A stretch of DNA of 33,030 nt from Lachnospiraceae bacterium (lineage in GTDB: Bacteria; Bacillota; Clostridia; Lachnospirales; Lachnospiraceae): the NCBI GenBank assembly GCA_030524665.1, contig JAUNGL010000022.1, positions 1 through 33,030 on the forward strand. Direction: 5' to 3'. The notes under the pieces are model-generated. The model worked only from the letters and a program-made list of their open reading frames with translations, was not told the DNA's origin and did not search any database. Both the position numbers and the translations under genes were made by a program. This document shows, piece by piece, positions 8,018-15,383 of this stretch. Position 1 is the first letter of the stretch. Each line of letters opens with the position of its first letter.

Positions 8018-8302
8018 ATGATGAATACAATGCCTATTTCAGAATTGATCGAGAAAGTTGCGGAAATATGTAAGAATAATGGTGTGAAGCGACTGGATTT
8101 ATTTGGATCTTTTGCCACAAATACGGCAACACCAACCAGTGATATAGATTTTGTGGTTTATGGATGCAAAGATATCCTGCGTCTGGAAGAGTCTCTGGCT
8201 GCAATAGAAACACTTCGGAAGATTGATGTTTTTGACTATGATTCTATTCACAATAAATTTTTATTGGAGGATATCGAAAAATATGGAAAGCAAATATATT
8301 AA
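8018..8302 (+). CDS. MNT-type minimal nucleotidyltransferase (antitoxin-like)
   Basis: The 94-residue minimal nucleotidyltransferase has the pol-beta superfamily signature GS-(x10)-D-x-D: Gly30-Ser31 in LFGSFA and Asp42/Asp44 in SDIDF. A third candidate Asp lies in KIDVFDY. In characterised MNT/HEPN pairs the nucleotidyltransferase neutralises its HEPN partner, by adding AMP to it in studied systems. Here the next gene is such a partner and overlaps it by 20 bases. The start has CAGGAG at about seven bases; a second ATG follows directly. The region is AT-richer than the trp operon, consistent with acquired DNA. Whether it is a true toxin-antitoxin pair is not shown by sequence. Confidence 0.9.
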   Translation: MMNTMPISELIEKVAEICKNNGVKRLDLFGSFATNTATPTSDIDFVVYGCKDILRLEESLAAIETLRKIDVFDYDSIHNKFLLEDIEKYGKQIY

Positions 8303-8684
8303 TCGCTATAATACATTTTGTAAGAGTCTGAAAAATTTAGAAAAAAGTAAATCTGCTGATCTCAAAGCAGATTTTGTGCTGGAAGGGACCGTGTTGAATT
8401 TTAATCTTACATTTGACATTTCGTGGAAAGTGATAAAAGATATTCTGGTAAAGCAGATGGGAATTCTTGATTTTGCAATTGGGTCTCCAAGAGAGACATT
8501 ACAGCAGGGGTTTATCAATAGAATTATTGAGGATGATCGGTGGATGCAGATGCTTCGTGTCAGAAACCAGCTTGCTCATGATTATGATGGAACTTATGCG
8601 TTAGAAAAATTCCAGGATATCATTACGGTTTATTATTCTTTGTTTGAGAAATTAAAAGATAAAATTGAAAAATATTATAAATGA
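8283..8684 (+). CDS. HEPN-domain protein, nucleotidyltransferase substrate-binding (HI0074-like)
   Basis: The 133-residue all-helical protein carries the HEPN signature R-x4-H at Arg94-Asn-Gln-Leu-Ala-His99, followed by Tyr101 (R-N-x3-H-x-Y). In studied HEPN toxins this motif cuts RNA, and the Tyr is the residue modified by the MNT partner. Its layout best fits the HI0074 substrate-binding type. The frame is open further upstream inside the MNT gene, but ATG 8283 with TTGGAGG about a dozen bases upstream is the credible start. The pair is bracketed by palindromic repeats at 7786 and 8695. Confidence 0.88.
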   Translation: MESKYINRYNTFCKSLKNLEKSKSADLKADFVLEGTVLNFNLTFDISWKVIKDILVKQMGILDFAIGSPRETLQQGFINRIIEDDRWMQMLRVRNQLAHDYDGTYALEKFQDIITVYYSLFEKLKDKIEKYYK

Positions 8685-9839: not shown

Positions 9840-10235
9840 ATGAAAAAAGTTTGTGTGAGAGTCGGGAAGGATGAAGGGTTGAGTATGCGATACAGTTTCA
9901 GGAAAGATTTATATTCAAAAGAGTCTTTCATAAAAGCTGCATATAATTTTGTCGATGATTTTTATCTCCATCTGGACAGCGACGATGAATATTACATTGT
10001 GGATATGGAACCGCGGAGAACAGGGACAGACGGTCCGCAGATGCAGGAATTTCAAAATGAAATGCTGATCCAGGAGACGAGGAGAATCGTGAATGACAGA
10101 ACGATGCATTTACGGGAAATGATGTATGCGAGGGCTATGGCTTCCACTGTGATTGAGGAGCCTGCAGAAGAAAAGGTTTTTGCAGAAGAAAGCGCTGAAA
10201 AAATACTGACAGATTGGTTTGAAGAAAATGAATGA
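9840..10235 (+). CDS. hxsD: His-Xaa-Ser system protein HxsD
   Basis: HxsD is a small conserved protein of the His-Xaa-Ser peptide-modification system; its biochemical role is not known, and a maturase- or precursor-binding role is only inferred. The match is the core KDLYSKESFIKAAYNFVDDF, followed by an alternating strand (HLDSDDEYYIVDMEP) and a helix with FQNEMLIQETRR...DRTMHLREMMYARA, which follows the layout I know for HxsD. The C-terminal 30 residues are acidic and unconserved. The ATG at 9840 has no clear ribosome site. An in-frame ATG at 9885 has GAAGGG at six bases and starts MRYSFRKDLYS, so the true product may be 116 rather than 131 residues. First gene of a seven-gene coupled operon. 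Confidence 0.8.
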   Translation: MKKVCVRVGKDEGLSMRYSFRKDLYSKESFIKAAYNFVDDFYLHLDSDDEYYIVDMEPRRTGTDGPQMQEFQNEMLIQETRRIVNDRTMHLREMMYARAMASTVIEEPAEEKVFAEESAEKILTDWFEENE

Positions 10236-10440
10236 TAGTCTGTGGTTAAACAAAGAGCTGTATAGAAAGAGCACAATTCAGCAGGCATTGAAGGATTATT
10301 CCGGAATCTGTGAGGTACAGCTGCTTGAGGAACAGAATTACTATGTCTGCCGCTTCCTGAGGACCGTGCCGGAGCGGGGATTGACGATGAAAGAATTTGA
10401 AGATTATTTAATTAGTCTTACCAGAAAATATGAGTATTGA
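10228..10440 (+). CDS. Second, shortened HxsD-like protein
   Basis: This 70-residue protein aligns by eye with the first HxsD. NKELYRKSTIQQAL matches RKDLYSKESFIKAA, NYYVCRF matches EYYIVDM, and MKEFEDYLISL matches MQEFQNEMLIQ. It lacks the C-terminal helix and acidic tail. I therefore read it as a divergent paralogue, perhaps forming a heterodimer with HxsD or binding a different maturase. The ATG at 10228 overlaps the hxsD stop by eight bases; an in-frame TTG at 10219 is also possible. It ends inside the start of the A24 peptidase gene. Confidence 0.7.
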   Translation: MNDSLWLNKELYRKSTIQQALKDYSGICEVQLLEEQNYYVCRFLRTVPERGLTMKEFEDYLISLTRKYEY

Positions 10441-11500
10441 TTATGTGATTGTGGGAATCCTGCTGGGGCTGTGCCTGGTCTGCAGCTATACGGATTTGAA
10501 GGATGGAGTCATCAGAAACAAATATCTTGTTACTCTGGGTACGGCAGCAATTTTGCTGAATGCAGTCTCTCTCTGGCTGCATCAGAGCAGGGGGAGCAGG
10601 GAACTGATGTGGCAGCAGTATCTGTCTATGCTCGCAATCGGAGCGGCGGCAGCTCTGATTTTGTATGCAGTTAAAATATGGGCGGGCGGAGACTGTAAGC
10701 TGTACCTGGCTGTGACACTGGCGTTGCCTTATGATATCACGGTCCGGACCTTTTTGGGGATTGGTTTTGGACTCTATATTCCGATTCTGGCATTTTTATT
10801 TGGATATCTGTATATTATTTTCGATTCCGTGATTCGGGGCATACGGAATAAGAAACAGGATCCTGGCGGTTCGGAGCAGAATACGGAAAGGATTTCTGTT
10901 TTCAAACGTTCCGCATCAGGTTTTGTTGTCTATTTGAAATATTACGTGGCGATGGCATTTGTCAATAGTATGGTTGTATTTGCGGTTGAGTGGCTGGGAA
11001 TCTCGTGGGCGGATCAATGGATGCTGCTTTTACTGAATATTCTGATACTTTTTCTGATTGCGAAGCTGAAGCTGCTGGAGTACAAAAGTGTGCTGCTGGT
11101 GCTGCTGGCAGCCGACGTGATATTGGGGATTGTGAGTCTGGATACGGTCTGGAACAGACAAACACTTCTGACCTGGCTGGCCGTACTGTTGTCCGGTCTG
11201 ATGAAAAATATGTCGGATAATTACAATTATGAAGAAATCGAGACAGGAAGCCTGAAAAAGGGGATGATTCTGTCTGCGGCCAGTTCTCTGCTTTTGGTCA
11301 ATAACAGGTACAGTGGATTCCGGAAGATTTCAGATGAATCGCTGAATTCCAGGCTGACGGAAGAGGATATCAAAGCAATCCTTGATTTCAGTAAGAAAAA
11401 AAGTGCTCCGCAGAAGGTCTGTATCGTGAGAAAGGTGCCGTTTGCATTATTTATATCGCTGGCTGCTATCGTTGTATTGGCGGGAGGTATCCTGTTATGA
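10430..11500 (+). CDS. A24-type (prepilin/preflagellin peptidase-like) membrane aspartyl protease
   Basis: The 356-residue polytopic membrane protein has the two aspartates of A24 peptidases. Asp22 lies in SYTDLKDGVIRNK at the end of helix 1, and Asp88 in the GxGD-type motif AGGDCKL (residues 85-91). About six more hydrophobic helices follow. The C-terminal part (about residues 255-356) reads ETGSLKKGMIL, then RLTEEDIKAIL, then VPFALFISLAAIVVLAG, an order reminiscent of the soluble insert and last helix of archaeal FlaK-type preflagellin peptidases. The N-methylase domain of classical PilD is absent. No pilus, Tad or competence genes are nearby. The likely substrate is the precursor HxsA of the same operon (inference). 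The start overlaps the upstream gene by 11 bases, and the stop overlaps hxsC as ATGA. Confidence 0.85.
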   Translation: MSIDYVIVGILLGLCLVCSYTDLKDGVIRNKYLVTLGTAAILLNAVSLWLHQSRGSRELMWQQYLSMLAIGAAAALILYAVKIWAGGDCKLYLAVTLALPYDITVRTFLGIGFGLYIPILAFLFGYLYIIFDSVIRGIRNKKQDPGGSEQNTERISVFKRSASGFVVYLKYYVAMAFVNSMVVFAVEWLGISWADQWMLLLLNILILFLIAKLKLLEYKSVLLVLLAADVILGIVSLDTVWNRQTLLTWLAVLLSGLMKNMSDNYNYEEIETGSLKKGMILSAASSLLLVNNRYSGFRKISDESLNSRLTEEDIKAILDFSKKKSAPQKVCIVRKVPFALFISLAAIVVLAGGILL

Positions 11501-12600
11501 TGTTGAAAATAAGAAACTATAAGCATGGCTATCATATTGCATCATTTGCAAAAAGTGATAAGGCGTTTGAAGATATGAAAGCCAGAGGATACAGTGCCGT
11601 ATGTCTTACGGATGCGGAATTGTTTTTTTATCCGGAATTCTGGTCTGTGAAGCTGGACGTGGAGGAAGCCGCTGCATTTTCCGGGGTTGAAGAGTACAGT
11701 ATTCTGGAATTCAGTGACAGAGGGGCATATCTGTATCTGGATGCGGGCTCGGCGGATCATACGCTGTTTATTACGAATAAGTGTAATTCAAACTGTATCA
11801 TGTGTCCTGTCAGCGATCCGGTCAGAAAAAACAGTGAGATAGAGACCGCGGATACCTTGCTGAAAATCGCCGGACAGATCCCCTGTGATACCAGGCATAT
11901 TACGATTACAGGCGGGGAGCCGTTTATGATGAAGACCGATATTTTCCGCCTGTTTGATTATCTCAGAAGGAATCTGAATCAGACCGAGTATCTTCTTCTG
12001 ACGAACGGAAGAATACTGGCGGACCGTGAGTATTTTACGCAGTTTGAAGCATCGGTTCCGGACAAAATGCTTGTCGGCGTACCTCTGCATGGATACGATG
12101 CAGAGACGCATGACCGTATCACGAGAGCCAGGGGCAGCTTTGAACAGACGATGAAAGGTCTCAAAAATCTTTTGGCGGCTCATATCAAAGTAGAAATCAG
12201 AATTGTTGTGAGTCGGCTGAACCTTGATTTTATGGATCAGATCGCAGATTTCATTGCCAGAGAGCTGAAAGGTGTTTACACGGTGAAATTTATGGGGCTG
12301 GAAATGCTGGGGAATGCCAGACATAATTTTAGTCAGGTGTGGGTGGATTACAAAGAATCCTTTCCATATATGAAGGAGGCCGTGAAGAAGCTGGTTCTCC
12401 AGGGTTTTGATGTTGGCATTTATAATTATCCTCTGTGCTGTGTAGAGAAAGGCTACTGGCCGATCTGTGAAAAGAGCATTACGGACTATAAGATCAGATA
12501 TCTGCCGCAATGTGACAGTTGTACCAAAAAGGATGCCTGTGGTGGAATGTTCGCCGGAACGTTCCGTTTGATGGAAGGAATTGTTGAGGCAATCAAATGA
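11497..12600 (+). CDS. hxsC: Radical SAM maturase HxsC
   Basis: The 367-residue radical SAM enzyme has its [4Fe-4S]/SAM motif at Cys96, Cys100 and Cys103 (TNKCNSNCIMCP), ITGGEPF after it, and a further Cys-rich C-terminus (YPLCCVEKGYWPIC, then CDSCTKKDACGGMF). This suggests auxiliary iron-sulfur ligands. The overall layout, with an N-terminal domain of about 85 residues before the radical SAM barrel and the ending ACGGMFAGTF, fits the HxsC family paired with HxsB. It presumably acts on the His-Xaa-Ser repeats of HxsA in the cytoplasm before export. GGGAGG lies nine bases before the ATG, which overlaps the peptidase stop. The 3' end overlaps hxsB as ATGA. Confidence 0.88.
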   Translation: MMLKIRNYKHGYHIASFAKSDKAFEDMKARGYSAVCLTDAELFFYPEFWSVKLDVEEAAAFSGVEEYSILEFSDRGAYLYLDAGSADHTLFITNKCNSNCIMCPVSDPVRKNSEIETADTLLKIAGQIPCDTRHITITGGEPFMMKTDIFRLFDYLRRNLNQTEYLLLTNGRILADREYFTQFEASVPDKMLVGVPLHGYDAETHDRITRARGSFEQTMKGLKNLLAAHIKVEIRIVVSRLNLDFMDQIADFIARELKGVYTVKFMGLEMLGNARHNFSQVWVDYKESFPYMKEAVKKLVLQGFDVGIYNYPLCCVEKGYWPICEKSITDYKIRYLPQCDSCTKKDACGGMFAGTFRLMEGIVEAIK

Positions 12601-13982
12601 TAGCACCGTTTCATTTTAAAAAACTGAAGGACAGGATCATTATTACAAATGATCTGGGAAGGTATGCATTTTTATCTTTGGATGAGTTCAGGAAATTTGC
12701 AGATGGAGAGCTGGATTCTGAGTCGGAATTGTATCAGAAGCTGAAGAAAAATTATTTTCTCTATGATACTTCTCCTGAGAGATATCTTGAGGATATCAAA
12801 CCGGAGCTGCGGTATGGCAAAAGCTATCTGTTTTCGGCCACAAGCCTGCATATTTTTGTAGTGACGAATTATTGTAACGCAGCATGCATTTATTGTCAGG
12901 CGCAGAGCGGCAGCATTCACGGGTGTAAGAAAATGACCAGAGAGGTGGCGCGGAAGTCTGTCGACCTTGCGCTGCAGTCGCCGCAGAAGGAGCTGAGCTT
13001 TGAATTTCAGGGCGGTGAGCCACTGAGTAATTTTGCAATGATCAGATATATTGTGGAATATACAAATTCAGTGAATACAGATAAAATCATTCATTACAGC
13101 GTGGTAAGCAATCTTTCTCTGCTGACGGAAGAGATGGTTCGATTTTTTCAGGAGCATAGTGTATCGATTTCGACTTCTCTGGACGGGGACAGAACCCTGC
13201 ATGGATGGAACCGCCCATTGGGCGACGGAAGCAATTCGTACGACATCCTGAAGCAGAAGCTTGAACTGCTGAAATTAAACGGCTTAGGCTATGGCGCGAT
13301 ACAGACAACCACCAGAAATTCGCTGAGCCGGTCGAAACAGATGATCGATGAGTATCTGAATCTGGGACTGGACAGTATTTTTATACGGCCTTTAACGCCA
13401 CTCGGATATGCAGGAAAGCGCTGGGCGGAAATCGGATATACAACCGGGGAATTTCTGGATTTTTACCGGAGCTGTATCTGCTATCTGCTCGAGGTCAACC
13501 GTAAAGGGTATTTTATGAGAGAAGGACATGCTTCGATTTTTCTTTCAAAGATACTGAATGGCTATGGCATGAATTATATGGAACTCCGTTCTCCGTGCGG
13601 CGCGGGAATCGGCCAGCTTGCTTATTATTACGATGGGAATGTGTTTACCTGCGATGAGGGAAGAATGCTCTTTGAGATGGGGGATGCATCCTTTAAGCTT
13701 GGGAATGTGGTCTCAGATGATTACGACAGCCTGATGAATTCAAAGCTCTGCAAAACGGTATGTAAGTACAGCATTATAGAGAGCCTGCCGAAATGCTGTG
13801 ACTGCGCATATCAGCCGTACTGCGGAACCTGTCCGGTTGTGAATTATGCGCTGGAGAGGGATATCATCAGCAGGAGCAATAAAAATTACAGATGCAGGAT
13901 ATACGAAGGAATGCTGGATATTCTTTTTGAACTTTTAGAGGATGAGAAAAATACAGATATTTTAAGGAGATGGTCAGAGTGA
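12597..13982 (+). CDS. hxsB: Radical SAM/SPASM maturase HxsB
   Basis: The 461-residue protein has an N-terminal domain resembling peptide-binding (RRE-like) folds (residues 1-80), a radical SAM motif at Cys93, Cys97 and Cys100 (NYCNAACIYCQA), FQGGEP, and a C-terminal SPASM domain. That domain carries CGAG, FTCDEGR and KCCDCAYQPYCGTCPV, which would bind auxiliary clusters. Such enzymes modify ribosomally made peptides, often through carbon-centred crosslinks. HxsB together with HxsC defines the His-Xaa-Ser system; the exact product is not known to me. It overlaps hxsC by four bases, and its stop overlaps the MORN gene start as GTGA. Confidence 0.9.
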   Translation: MIAPFHFKKLKDRIIITNDLGRYAFLSLDEFRKFADGELDSESELYQKLKKNYFLYDTSPERYLEDIKPELRYGKSYLFSATSLHIFVVTNYCNAACIYCQAQSGSIHGCKKMTREVARKSVDLALQSPQKELSFEFQGGEPLSNFAMIRYIVEYTNSVNTDKIIHYSVVSNLSLLTEEMVRFFQEHSVSISTSLDGDRTLHGWNRPLGDGSNSYDILKQKLELLKLNGLGYGAIQTTTRNSLSRSKQMIDEYLNLGLDSIFIRPLTPLGYAGKRWAEIGYTTGEFLDFYRSCICYLLEVNRKGYFMREGHASIFLSKILNGYGMNYMELRSPCGAGIGQLAYYYDGNVFTCDEGRMLFEMGDASFKLGNVVSDDYDSLMNSKLCKTVCKYSIIESLPKCCDCAYQPYCGTCPVVNYALERDIISRSNKNYRCRIYEGMLDILFELLEDEKNTDILRRWSE

Positions 13983-14893
13983 AACGTGTTTTGGAGAAAA
14001 AAGATAACAGAGTTCCATGCAGAGTAATCGTCAGTATTGCAGTTATCTGTATGCTGACCTTCGTGTCTCTCGCAAATCCGGAGCTGACGCAGATTGAAGT
14101 GGCGGACGCTGCGGAAATGGAAGAAATTACAACTTCCAGCGGTACGTATTACGGAATTGATACATACGGGGTAGTTGATTATGCCCAATTTATATTCAAT
14201 AATGGAGATTCCTATGAGGGAAGCTGGTATGCAGGGGAATTCGATGGAAAAGGGAAATATGTTTATCAGGGAATCGGGACATATTCCGGAGATTTTGAAT
14301 ACAGTCAGCGCTACGGAGACGGAGTATTCACGTGGAATGACGGAAGCACTTATTCCGGTCAATGGTATGATGACAAAATCGAAGGTTCAGGTACCTACAC
14401 GTCAAACACCGGTTTTATTTTGAAGGGAGAGTTCATCAGTAACAGGTTTTATGAGGGATATCTGTTTTACAAAAAATCAGGAACTACCTACAAATATGAA
14501 GTCGTAAATGGAAAATATACCGGAAAGATTACGATTCAGTATAAGAACGGAAGCAAGTATACGGGAACCTATAAGAACAACAAAATTACCGGAAAAGGGA
14601 CCATGAAATATAAAAATGGCGATAAGTATACCGGTACATTTAAGAATGGAAAAAAATCCGGTACAGGTAAGTATACCTGGAAGAATGGAGCACGTTATCA
14701 GGGAAGCTGGAAGGATGATAAAATGAGCGGAAACGGAACCTACTATTATCATTCCAGTTCAAAAGGAAAAACACTCAAGGGTAAATTTTCCAAAAACAAG
14801 CCAACCGGTGAATGTGTCTATTTAAGCAGAAAAGGAAAAAAGTATAAAACTACCTGGAAAAATGGTAAATGCACAAAGGTAAAGGGGTATTGA
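13979..14893 (+). CDS. Secreted MORN-repeat protein of the Hxs operon
   Basis: The 304-residue protein has an N-terminal signal or anchor: basic residues, then a hydrophobic stretch at about residues 14-33 and a possible ADAA cleavage site near 43-46. About eight MORN repeats follow, of the form Y-x-G-x-[WF]-x-[DN]-x-K-x-x-G-x-G-x-[YM]-x-[YW]-x-[ND]-G, for example GDKYTGTFKNGKKSGTGKYT. MORN repeats form beta-hairpin scaffolds that bind lipids or proteins. Its place between maturase and precursor suggests it holds or displays the mature peptide outside the cell (inference). I chose GTG 13979 because AAGGAG (13964-13969) is nine bases before it. The in-frame ATG at 13970 directly abuts that site and would add three residues. 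Confidence 0.85.
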   Translation: MKRVLEKKDNRVPCRVIVSIAVICMLTFVSLANPELTQIEVADAAEMEEITTSSGTYYGIDTYGVVDYAQFIFNNGDSYEGSWYAGEFDGKGKYVYQGIGTYSGDFEYSQRYGDGVFTWNDGSTYSGQWYDDKIEGSGTYTSNTGFILKGEFISNRFYEGYLFYKKSGTTYKYEVVNGKYTGKITIQYKNGSKYTGTYKNNKITGKGTMKYKNGDKYTGTFKNGKKSGTGKYTWKNGARYQGSWKDDKMSGNGTYYYHSSSKGKTLKGKFSKNKPTGECVYLSRKGKKYKTTWKNGKCTKVKGY

Positions 14894-14897
14894 TCAC

Positions 14898-15383
14898 ATG
14901 AGTAATGAACTGTTTCCGATAATAGAAAAATCAATCTCTGATCTGATCAACGATGAGGAGGGAAATATTCCGAGAGGAAAACTGGTTGTACTCGGCTCTA
15001 CCATTATGTTAATGGGAATGATTATGGGAATTGATTCCTTTGCGGCTCATTCGTCGCACCGGTCTCATTCGTCGCATCGGTCTCATTCCTCCCATTCTTC
15101 TCATCGGTCAGGGTCCGGTCATGCTTCGCACAGCAACCATGCATCACACAGTAACCATGCGTCCCATAGTAATTCGCATTCGTCACACAGCAATGTTGCT
15201 CATACAAATTCCAACACGAGACCAGGCCATATCAACAATGCGGGCGGAAGCATTCCGGGAACAAAAGAGATTCCGGTACCGAAGCAGCCGCAGTCAAACA
15301 GTTTTGTGAAGGACATACCGAAAGTGTCATCTGCGTTCAACCTGACGTTGAATCCTGGTGTTACCAGGGACGCAGAGATGTAA
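14898..15383 (+). CDS. hxsA: His-Xaa-Ser repeat precursor peptide HxsA
   Basis: This 161-residue protein is the probable substrate of HxsB and HxsC. It has a 28-residue polar leader, a hydrophobic segment (about 29-45, rich in Leu, Met and Gly) and a core with His at strict three-residue spacing: 51-69 (seven), 75-90 (six), then 94, 97 and 102. The units alternate between HSS/HRS and HAS/HSN. A Pro/Asn-rich tail of about 55 residues follows. The leader contains DEEG-N (Gly22) and PRG-K (Gly27) just before the hydrophobic stretch, resembling class III prepilin or archaellin sites; S-F-A-A-H near 47-51 is an alternative signal peptidase I site. It starts five bases after the MORN stop with a weak AAAGGGG site. 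No terminator is evident after it. Confidence 0.88.
   Translation: MSNELFPIIEKSISDLINDEEGNIPRGKLVVLGSTIMLMGMIMGIDSFAAHSSHRSHSSHRSHSSHSSHRSGSGHASHSNHASHSNHASHSNSHSSHSNVAHTNSNTRPGHINNAGGSIPGTKEIPVPKQPQSNSFVKDIPKVSSAFNLTLNPGVTRDAEM
15048..15173 (+). repeat. 18-base tandem repeats in hxsA
   Basis: At least two 18-base units encoding HSSHRS (15048-15065 and 15066-15083) differ by one base. Three units encoding HASHSN (15120-15137, 15138-15155 and 15156-15173) differ by a few third positions. The core therefore grew by in-frame duplication of six-residue units. Confidence 0.85.

Follow-up and report, generated by a model that had tools for sequence, protein, structure and literature searches.

A seven-gene Hxs cassette in a Lachnospiraceae bacterium (assembly GCA_030524665.1, contig JAUNGL010000022.1, positions 1 to 33,030; this whole stretch of 33,030 nucleotides is referred to as the window) encodes a His-Xaa-Ser peptide precursor of the HxsA3 family, two radical S-adenosylmethionine (SAM) enzymes, two HxsD-type proteins, a MORN-repeat protein and a membrane aspartic peptidase of family A24. 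We lean toward the reading that this peptidase trims HxsA3 in the way that a prepilin peptidase trims Flp, which would leave the radical-SAM-modified core anchored at the cell surface near the MORN protein. The new element is the predicted pairing of a prepilin-type HxsA3 leader with a dedicated A24 peptidase. Direct support comes from the gene content, the family membership, the co-occurrence of the genes, the rigid spacing within HxsA3, the catalytic motifs and the shared leader end; the modification, the cleavage site, the topology and the contact with the wall are the parts of the model that we infer.

Anatomy and family assignment of the cassette

The seven genes are all located on the + strand and are packed at 9840-15383, where each of the first six overlaps the next and four bases separate the stop of the MORN gene from hxsA3, in agreement with the operon described in the initial annotation. 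The hxsD gene (9840-10235; TIGR03976, 69.9 bits against an NCBIfam cut-off of 50) is followed by the HxsD-like gene hxsD2 (10228-10440; NF038315, 61.3 bits, cut-off 41), the gene of the A24 (GxGD-type) peptidase (10430-11500; PF01478 of Pfam, 30.8 bits, cut-off 26.5), the radical SAM maturase genes hxsC (11497-12600; TIGR03977, 306.2 bits, cut-off 267.9) and hxsB (12597-13982; TIGR03978, 519 bits, cut-off 370), the gene of a MORN-repeat protein predicted to be membrane-anchored with its repeats outside (13970-14893; six stretches matching PF02493), and the precursor gene hxsA3 (14898-15383; NF038309, 89.7 bits, cut-off 65). The real start of hxsD may instead be an internal ATG at 9885, because the stretch upstream of it is GA-rich and it agrees with the starts in relatives, and a TTG at 10219 is a possible start of hxsD2.

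With HxsB, HxsC, HxsD and a His-Xaa-Ser precursor all above curated cut-offs, the cassette qualifies as an Hxs system. The Pfam Radical_SAM domain is present in both HxsB and HxsC, and the C93/C97/C100 cluster of HxsB, together with further downstream cysteines, forms invariant columns in a 10-row alignment. The initial assignment of the two radical SAM proteins to HxsB and HxsC was therefore upheld by the family scores, and the naming of the precursor as hxsA had to be corrected to HxsA3, since with the model of classical HxsA (TIGR03979) it scored 14.2 bits, below the cut-off of 121.65. A defense viperin was rejected, the generic radical SAM matches reaching E 2.5e-14 at best, compared with 1.7e-91 for HxsC and 1.1e-155 for HxsB. 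A chance gene array was ruled out as well, because the same set of genes reappears in distant genomes. The cassette is thus real. It probably modifies a His/Ser-rich surface peptide by means of two radical enzymes, and its precursor and protease look borrowed from pilus biology. No significant match for HxsD was found among solved structures by sequence search (best E 0.17).

Co-occurrence of the A24 peptidase with HxsA3

Eleven HxsA3-type loci could be scored (the window, L005, L016, L017, L018, L021, L022, L023, L024, L027 and L037). HxsA3 scored above the NF038309 cut-off in all six loci tested (the window, L016 in genome G102, L017 in G159, L018, L027 and L037) and was recognized by phmmer in the remaining five. 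The A24 protease is present in all 11 loci, the MORN protein in nine (absent from L018 and L021) and HxsD2 in eight (absent from L022, L024 and L037, in the last of which HxsD was identified by eye), and hxsC precedes hxsB in every one. This tally did not refute the expectation that the protease and the MORN protein travel with the precursor. Six further loci were kept apart from this count: L033, an apparent near-copy of L005; L019, whose contig begins within hxsC; L020, with a broken hxsB; L042 and L043, which are partial or weak; and L025, a long branch that lacks A24 and has no flagged His-Xaa-Ser open reading frame (ORF).

At the genome level, the same four genomes (G000, G008, G102 and G159) accounted for the presence of HxsA3 in 4 of 195 and of the A24 subfamily in 4 of 200 genomes of the family samples. 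In nine cassette genomes, each of the 33 MORN matches (E up to 0.001) falls within the MORN gene of the cassette; where the cassette is MORN-less, as in two of these genomes, there are zero MORN matches genome-wide.

Classical Hxs loci, with HxsA or HxsA2 as precursor, draw on the same families of HxsB, HxsC and HxsD as the HxsA3 form and have a core that is almost the same, but differ in organization. In the 12 classical loci compared (L028-L032, L034-L036 and L038-L041) the order is invariably D-B-C, with the precursor at either end. Unlike in the HxsA3 form, the profiles of the A24 subfamily, MORN and HxsD2 had no match in any of the 12 within 5 to 6.5 kb on each side, although the A24 profile is tuned to the cassette subfamily and a strongly different A24 in classical loci could escape it. 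The earlier suggestion was that the protease, the MORN protein and the doubled HxsD could define a little-described form; neither HxsA3 nor the second HxsD-like protein is undescribed, however, because NCBI models exist for both (NF038309 and NF038315), of which the window proteins are members above cut-off.

The window peptidase belongs to family A24 by its PF01478 score and by two Asp motifs. The predicted first catalytic residue, Asp22 (codon at 10493-10495, + strand), lies in a T/S-D-x-K/R ... N motif and the predicted second, Asp88 (codon at 10691-10693, + strand), in a GGDxKL motif; both are invariant in a 9-row alignment in which the eight relatives are just 24-28% identical to the window protein. 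Both motifs (the second as GDxKL) are kept in 11/11 cassette peptidases. Detection by PF01478 is weak in the relatives: eight of nine cassette A24 were found at E 0.001, one of these under the cut-off, and that of genome G1227 was missed and then found by the subfamily profile. In the A24 tree, which carries a long-branch warning and has weak inner forks, the cassette peptidases form their own group (100/99), apart from 12 other A24 of the cassette genomes, namely those with a recognizable motif among 18 matches beyond the cassettes. The separate grouping and an added C-terminal region, which in the window terminates in a PFAxF motif, distinguish the cassette peptidase from TadV-type A24. Sequence search against solved structures gave nothing significant for the A24 peptidase (best E 0.16, the peptidase FlaK).

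Prepilin-like features of the HxsA3 leader

The window HxsA3 consists, on the + strand, of a hydrophilic leader of residues 1-22 ending in DEEG (14898-14963), with the predicted A24 cut after Gly22, a six-residue linker, NIPRGK (14964-14981), a mostly hydrophobic segment of 22 residues with an AxA-like site at its end (14982-15047), and the His-Xaa-Ser repeat core, delimited by sequence and alignments (15048-15194). This architecture is uniform across all 11 HxsA3: the leader ends in Gly in ten and in Ala in L037, the linker has six residues and ends in Lys, the hydrophobic segment has 22 residues in ten and 23 in L037, and the core His comes next. In contrast, 35-54 residues separate the most hydrophobic segment from the core in all 12 classical precursors, although the core itself is much alike in the two forms.

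A hydrophilic leader that ends in Gly or Ala ahead of a hydrophobic segment recalls type III prepilins. According to passages of PMC10191384, type III leaders are hydrophilic and end in Gly or Ala, 20-25 mainly hydrophobic residues follow, Glu at +5 is frequent but not universal, and prepilin peptidases have two conserved Asp and cut on the cytoplasmic side. Flp precursors are cut by TadV, as stated in part of PMC3244431. Two features are shared between the Tad/Flp pair of prepilin and TadV-type A24 and the cassette, namely the two Asp motifs of the peptidase and the acidic Gly/Ala leader end before the hydrophobic segment. Four Flp1-like pilins from the Tad loci of G102, G159, G008 and G650, all above the PF16982 cut-off, have leaders with the same acidic end followed by Gly or Ala. 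Profile alignment placed the HxsA3 N-termini in the same register as five Flp-type sequences (P 5e-4), with P 0.35 for the N-termini of MORN proteins and P 0.12 for those of classical precursors as controls. The earlier proposal that the A24 enzyme removes the leader thereby gained a leader end of the Flp-prepilin type and conserved catalytic Asp residues; the cleavage itself is a prediction.

Several observations weigh against a prepilin-like processing of HxsA3. The six-residue, partly charged linker stands between the leader end and the hydrophobic segment in 11/11 HxsA3, with Lys at +6 in all and a charge at +4 in part of them. The published detection rule for pilins, given in a section of PMC3244431 as [GAS], four uncharged residues, [DE] and then an uncharged run, fits 0/11, as none has Glu at +5, and the window HxsA3 has no match to any pilin family of Pfam. 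HxsA3 is therefore not a pilin by this rule, unlike the Flp prepilin, even though its leader may function in the manner of type III leaders. The profile match between HxsA3 and Flp is weak (probability 30%). The acidic end is found in only 4 of 17 prepilin-like candidates and is lacking in the other 13, which makes HxsA3 similar to Flp1-like pilins in particular rather than to A24 substrates as a whole. A scan of 107 proteins that have a hydrophobic segment near the N-terminus, in which 13 carry the acidic-acidic-x-Gly/Ala motif ahead of that segment, speaks for the prepilin-like reading, but the count is rough, because the 29 scanned loci had been picked for their hxs and A24 genes, the definition of the motif came after inspection of the sequences, and the filters lost 2 of the 11 HxsA3 and 3 of the 4 Flp1-like pilins above cut-off. 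The 13 carriers comprise nine HxsA3 and four others: one Flp1-like pilin, one weak Flp1-like pilin (27.5 bits, cut-off 33.5), one TadE and one unnamed protein that has no pilin match and adjoins an A24 gene. The co-occurrence of the peptidase with HxsA3 may itself reflect one event, because the HxsB proteins of the HxsA3 type share one side of one branch of the HxsB tree. In addition, no A24 or HxsA3 was found in genome G332, which carries HxsB and a partial HxsC, although its contig starts inside hxsC, which limits the weight of this case.

Alternative explanations for the peptidase

A further point against the prepilin-like reading is that an [ASV]-x-[AG] site, usable by signal peptidase I, precedes the core His in 11/11 HxsA3. 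Together with a hydrophobic length that suits a signal peptide, this site would be expected if the HxsA3 leader were a long ordinary signal of the general secretory (Sec) pathway, in which case signal peptidase I would cut at AxA and free the modified peptide, and the A24 peptidase would either trim the leader first or clear the leftover signal helix. We regard this explanation as unlikely, though worth serious weight. A small-residue step before the first His also occurs in several classical precursors, where it lies 35-54 residues away from the hydrophobic segment, so it may be a feature of the core; moreover, a Sec signal would leave the conserved acidic Gly/Ala end and the dedicated A24 peptidase unexplained.

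It is improbable that HxsA3 retains its leader and that the A24 peptidase instead processes something else, for instance host pilins or the MORN protein. Pilin processing does exist in cassette genomes, because further A24 matches were found outside the cassette in eight of nine of them and Flp1-like pilins in four. Yet the A24 gene persists in the MORN-less loci L018 and L021, no A24 match besides that of the cassette was found in genome G992 (93% complete), and the cassette peptidases cluster apart from those encoded elsewhere in the same genomes. Assembly of HxsA3 into a pilus-like filament is very improbable despite its prepilin-like leader end, given the missing +5 Glu and the finding that, unlike Tad loci, the Hxs cassette holds no pilus genes, with no pilus ATPase or platform protein detected by Pfam among its seven proteins and ten flanking proteins of the window.

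Proposed maturation and surface display of HxsA3

If the cassette A24 peptidase trims HxsA3, maturation could proceed as follows. As putative helper or recognition proteins, HxsD and HxsD2 would bring HxsA3 to the two maturases, HxsB and HxsC, and its His/Ser core would be modified by them while still cytoplasmic. Cross-links, proposed in the initial annotation, are one candidate form of this modification, and metal-binding, adhesive and antimicrobial functions are candidate roles of the product. HxsA3 would then insert into the membrane with the leader inside and the core outside, and the peptidase, acting on the cytoplasmic side, would cut off the leader behind the conserved Gly (Ala in one case), in the way that TadV processes the Flp prepilin. 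The modified core would remain outside, held by its own hydrophobic helix beside the membrane-anchored MORN protein, which probably ties it to the cell wall. Taken to its full extent, the scheme makes HxsA3 a hybrid of a pilin and a ribosomally synthesized and post-translationally modified peptide (RiPP), whose leader would be cut inside the cell by a dedicated prepilin-type A24 peptidase and whose modified core would be displayed on a membrane helix; this hybrid we propose tentatively.

The MORN proteins have a hydrophobic N-terminal segment, and the net charge before it is positive in eight of nine, including the window protein with its positive residues ahead of the segment, and zero in L024. 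Of the long classical precursors, four were tested (L028, L031, L032 and L034) and all have a PG_binding_1 domain; in L037 the MORN protein combines MORN with PG_binding_1, which three other MORN proteins tested lack. The occurrence of this domain in classical precursors and in the L037 protein suggests that both act outside the cell. The MORN repeats may likewise face outward, possibly linking HxsA3 to the wall. HxsA3 is longer in the MORN-less loci L018 and L021 (236 and 230 residues) than in the other nine (138-197 residues), a hint from two cases that fits a fused surface part.

Hxs genes are named in the open-licence papers of PubMed Central (PMC), the scope of our literature search. PMC9062424 cites HxsB and HxsC, with reference to Haft and Basu, as putative maturases, and hxsA-D appear within a gene list in part of PMC8446631; the term His-Xaa-Ser also occurs in PMC6537148. 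In the portions of this literature covered, no characterized Hxs product was seen; HxsA3 is not mentioned, the terms radical SAM, prepilin peptidase and RiPP do not occur jointly, and MORN repeats are named along with radical SAM in one bioinformatics paper. A term search of the main text of a review on RiPP leader proteases (PMC10885120) returned none of prepilin, aspartyl, aspartic or A24. If the proposal is true, the cassette peptidase would represent a class of RiPP leader peptidases without a match in the literature searched, would link the maturation of RiPPs with the processing of type IV pilins, and would reveal a way to hold a modified peptide at the cell surface. The HxsA3 form offers a compact, dedicated gene set with a precise predicted cut site. 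The initial annotation was largely right about the anatomy of this gene set, and its interpretation is, overall, partly supported.

Distribution and evolution of the cassette

Genomes with HxsB above the cut-off numbered 5 of 397 sampled from the family, 4 of 392 from the order, 4 of 391 from the class and 2 of 398 from the phylum, in samples that overlap and each count the window's own genome. One class-level match, in G739, is a divergent HxsB with no A24 or His-Xaa-Ser ORF nearby. In this locus (L025:608-9751), HxsB scores 388.6 bits, above the cut-off, on a long branch and lies among several radical SAM-like ORFs; two short ORFs beyond it look nif11-like.

In a tree of 25 HxsB sequences, the 12 rows labeled as HxsA3-type, among them L019, labeled without its precursor seen, are all separated from the other sequences by a single branch (97/95). 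Within the HxsA3-type side, members of the window's family fail to cluster, but eight inner forks of the tree are too weak to resolve. A rare cassette with a single origin and sideways spread would fit this pattern. Loss of the cassette seems to occur as well: G243 carries a broken hxsB relic with an in-frame TAG (L020:7848-8738), and no HxsA3 or A24 was found in that genome.

A whole cassette was also observed on an unverified scaffold from human feces labeled "Bacteriophage sp." (L033:1-7575), which by eye resembles the Faecalibacterium locus L005 and is probably host DNA. Viral contigs scanned with the A24 and HxsA3 alignments yielded no relatives. Among classical systems, an hxsDBCA locus is located on a Klebsiella plasmid (L034:4723-8120), and Klebsiella accounts for 316 of the 340 plasmid records in which HxsB found a match.

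Genes flanking the cassettes

Three distant HxsA3 loci (L022:644-6732, L023:9519-14880 and L027:1-6808) have a common module on the same strand beside hxsA3. It comprises an unknown protein of 255-259 amino acids, a relative of the DUF5050 protein of L023, an AAA ATPase, which in L027 is truncated by the end of the stretch, and a protein kinase, and is possibly a signaling partner of the cassette. In two other loci (L016:11448-14655 and L017:12061-13182), a PF10112 gene (5-bromo-4-chloroindolyl phosphate hydrolysis) immediately follows hxsA3, and in L016 two TelA genes come after it.

In the window, Rfam had no match, and promoter, terminator and repeat scans gave nothing informative. An empty cassette site was sought by comparing a 15 kb stretch with the same-genus genome G152, where the flanking genes matched on different contigs and no clean site was found. 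Ahead of the cassette, at 8018-8684, the window encodes a nucleotidyltransferase and its substrate-binding partner (PF18765 and PF08780), a pair that we take to be possibly toxin-antitoxin-like, and a 78% identical stretch is located elsewhere in G152.

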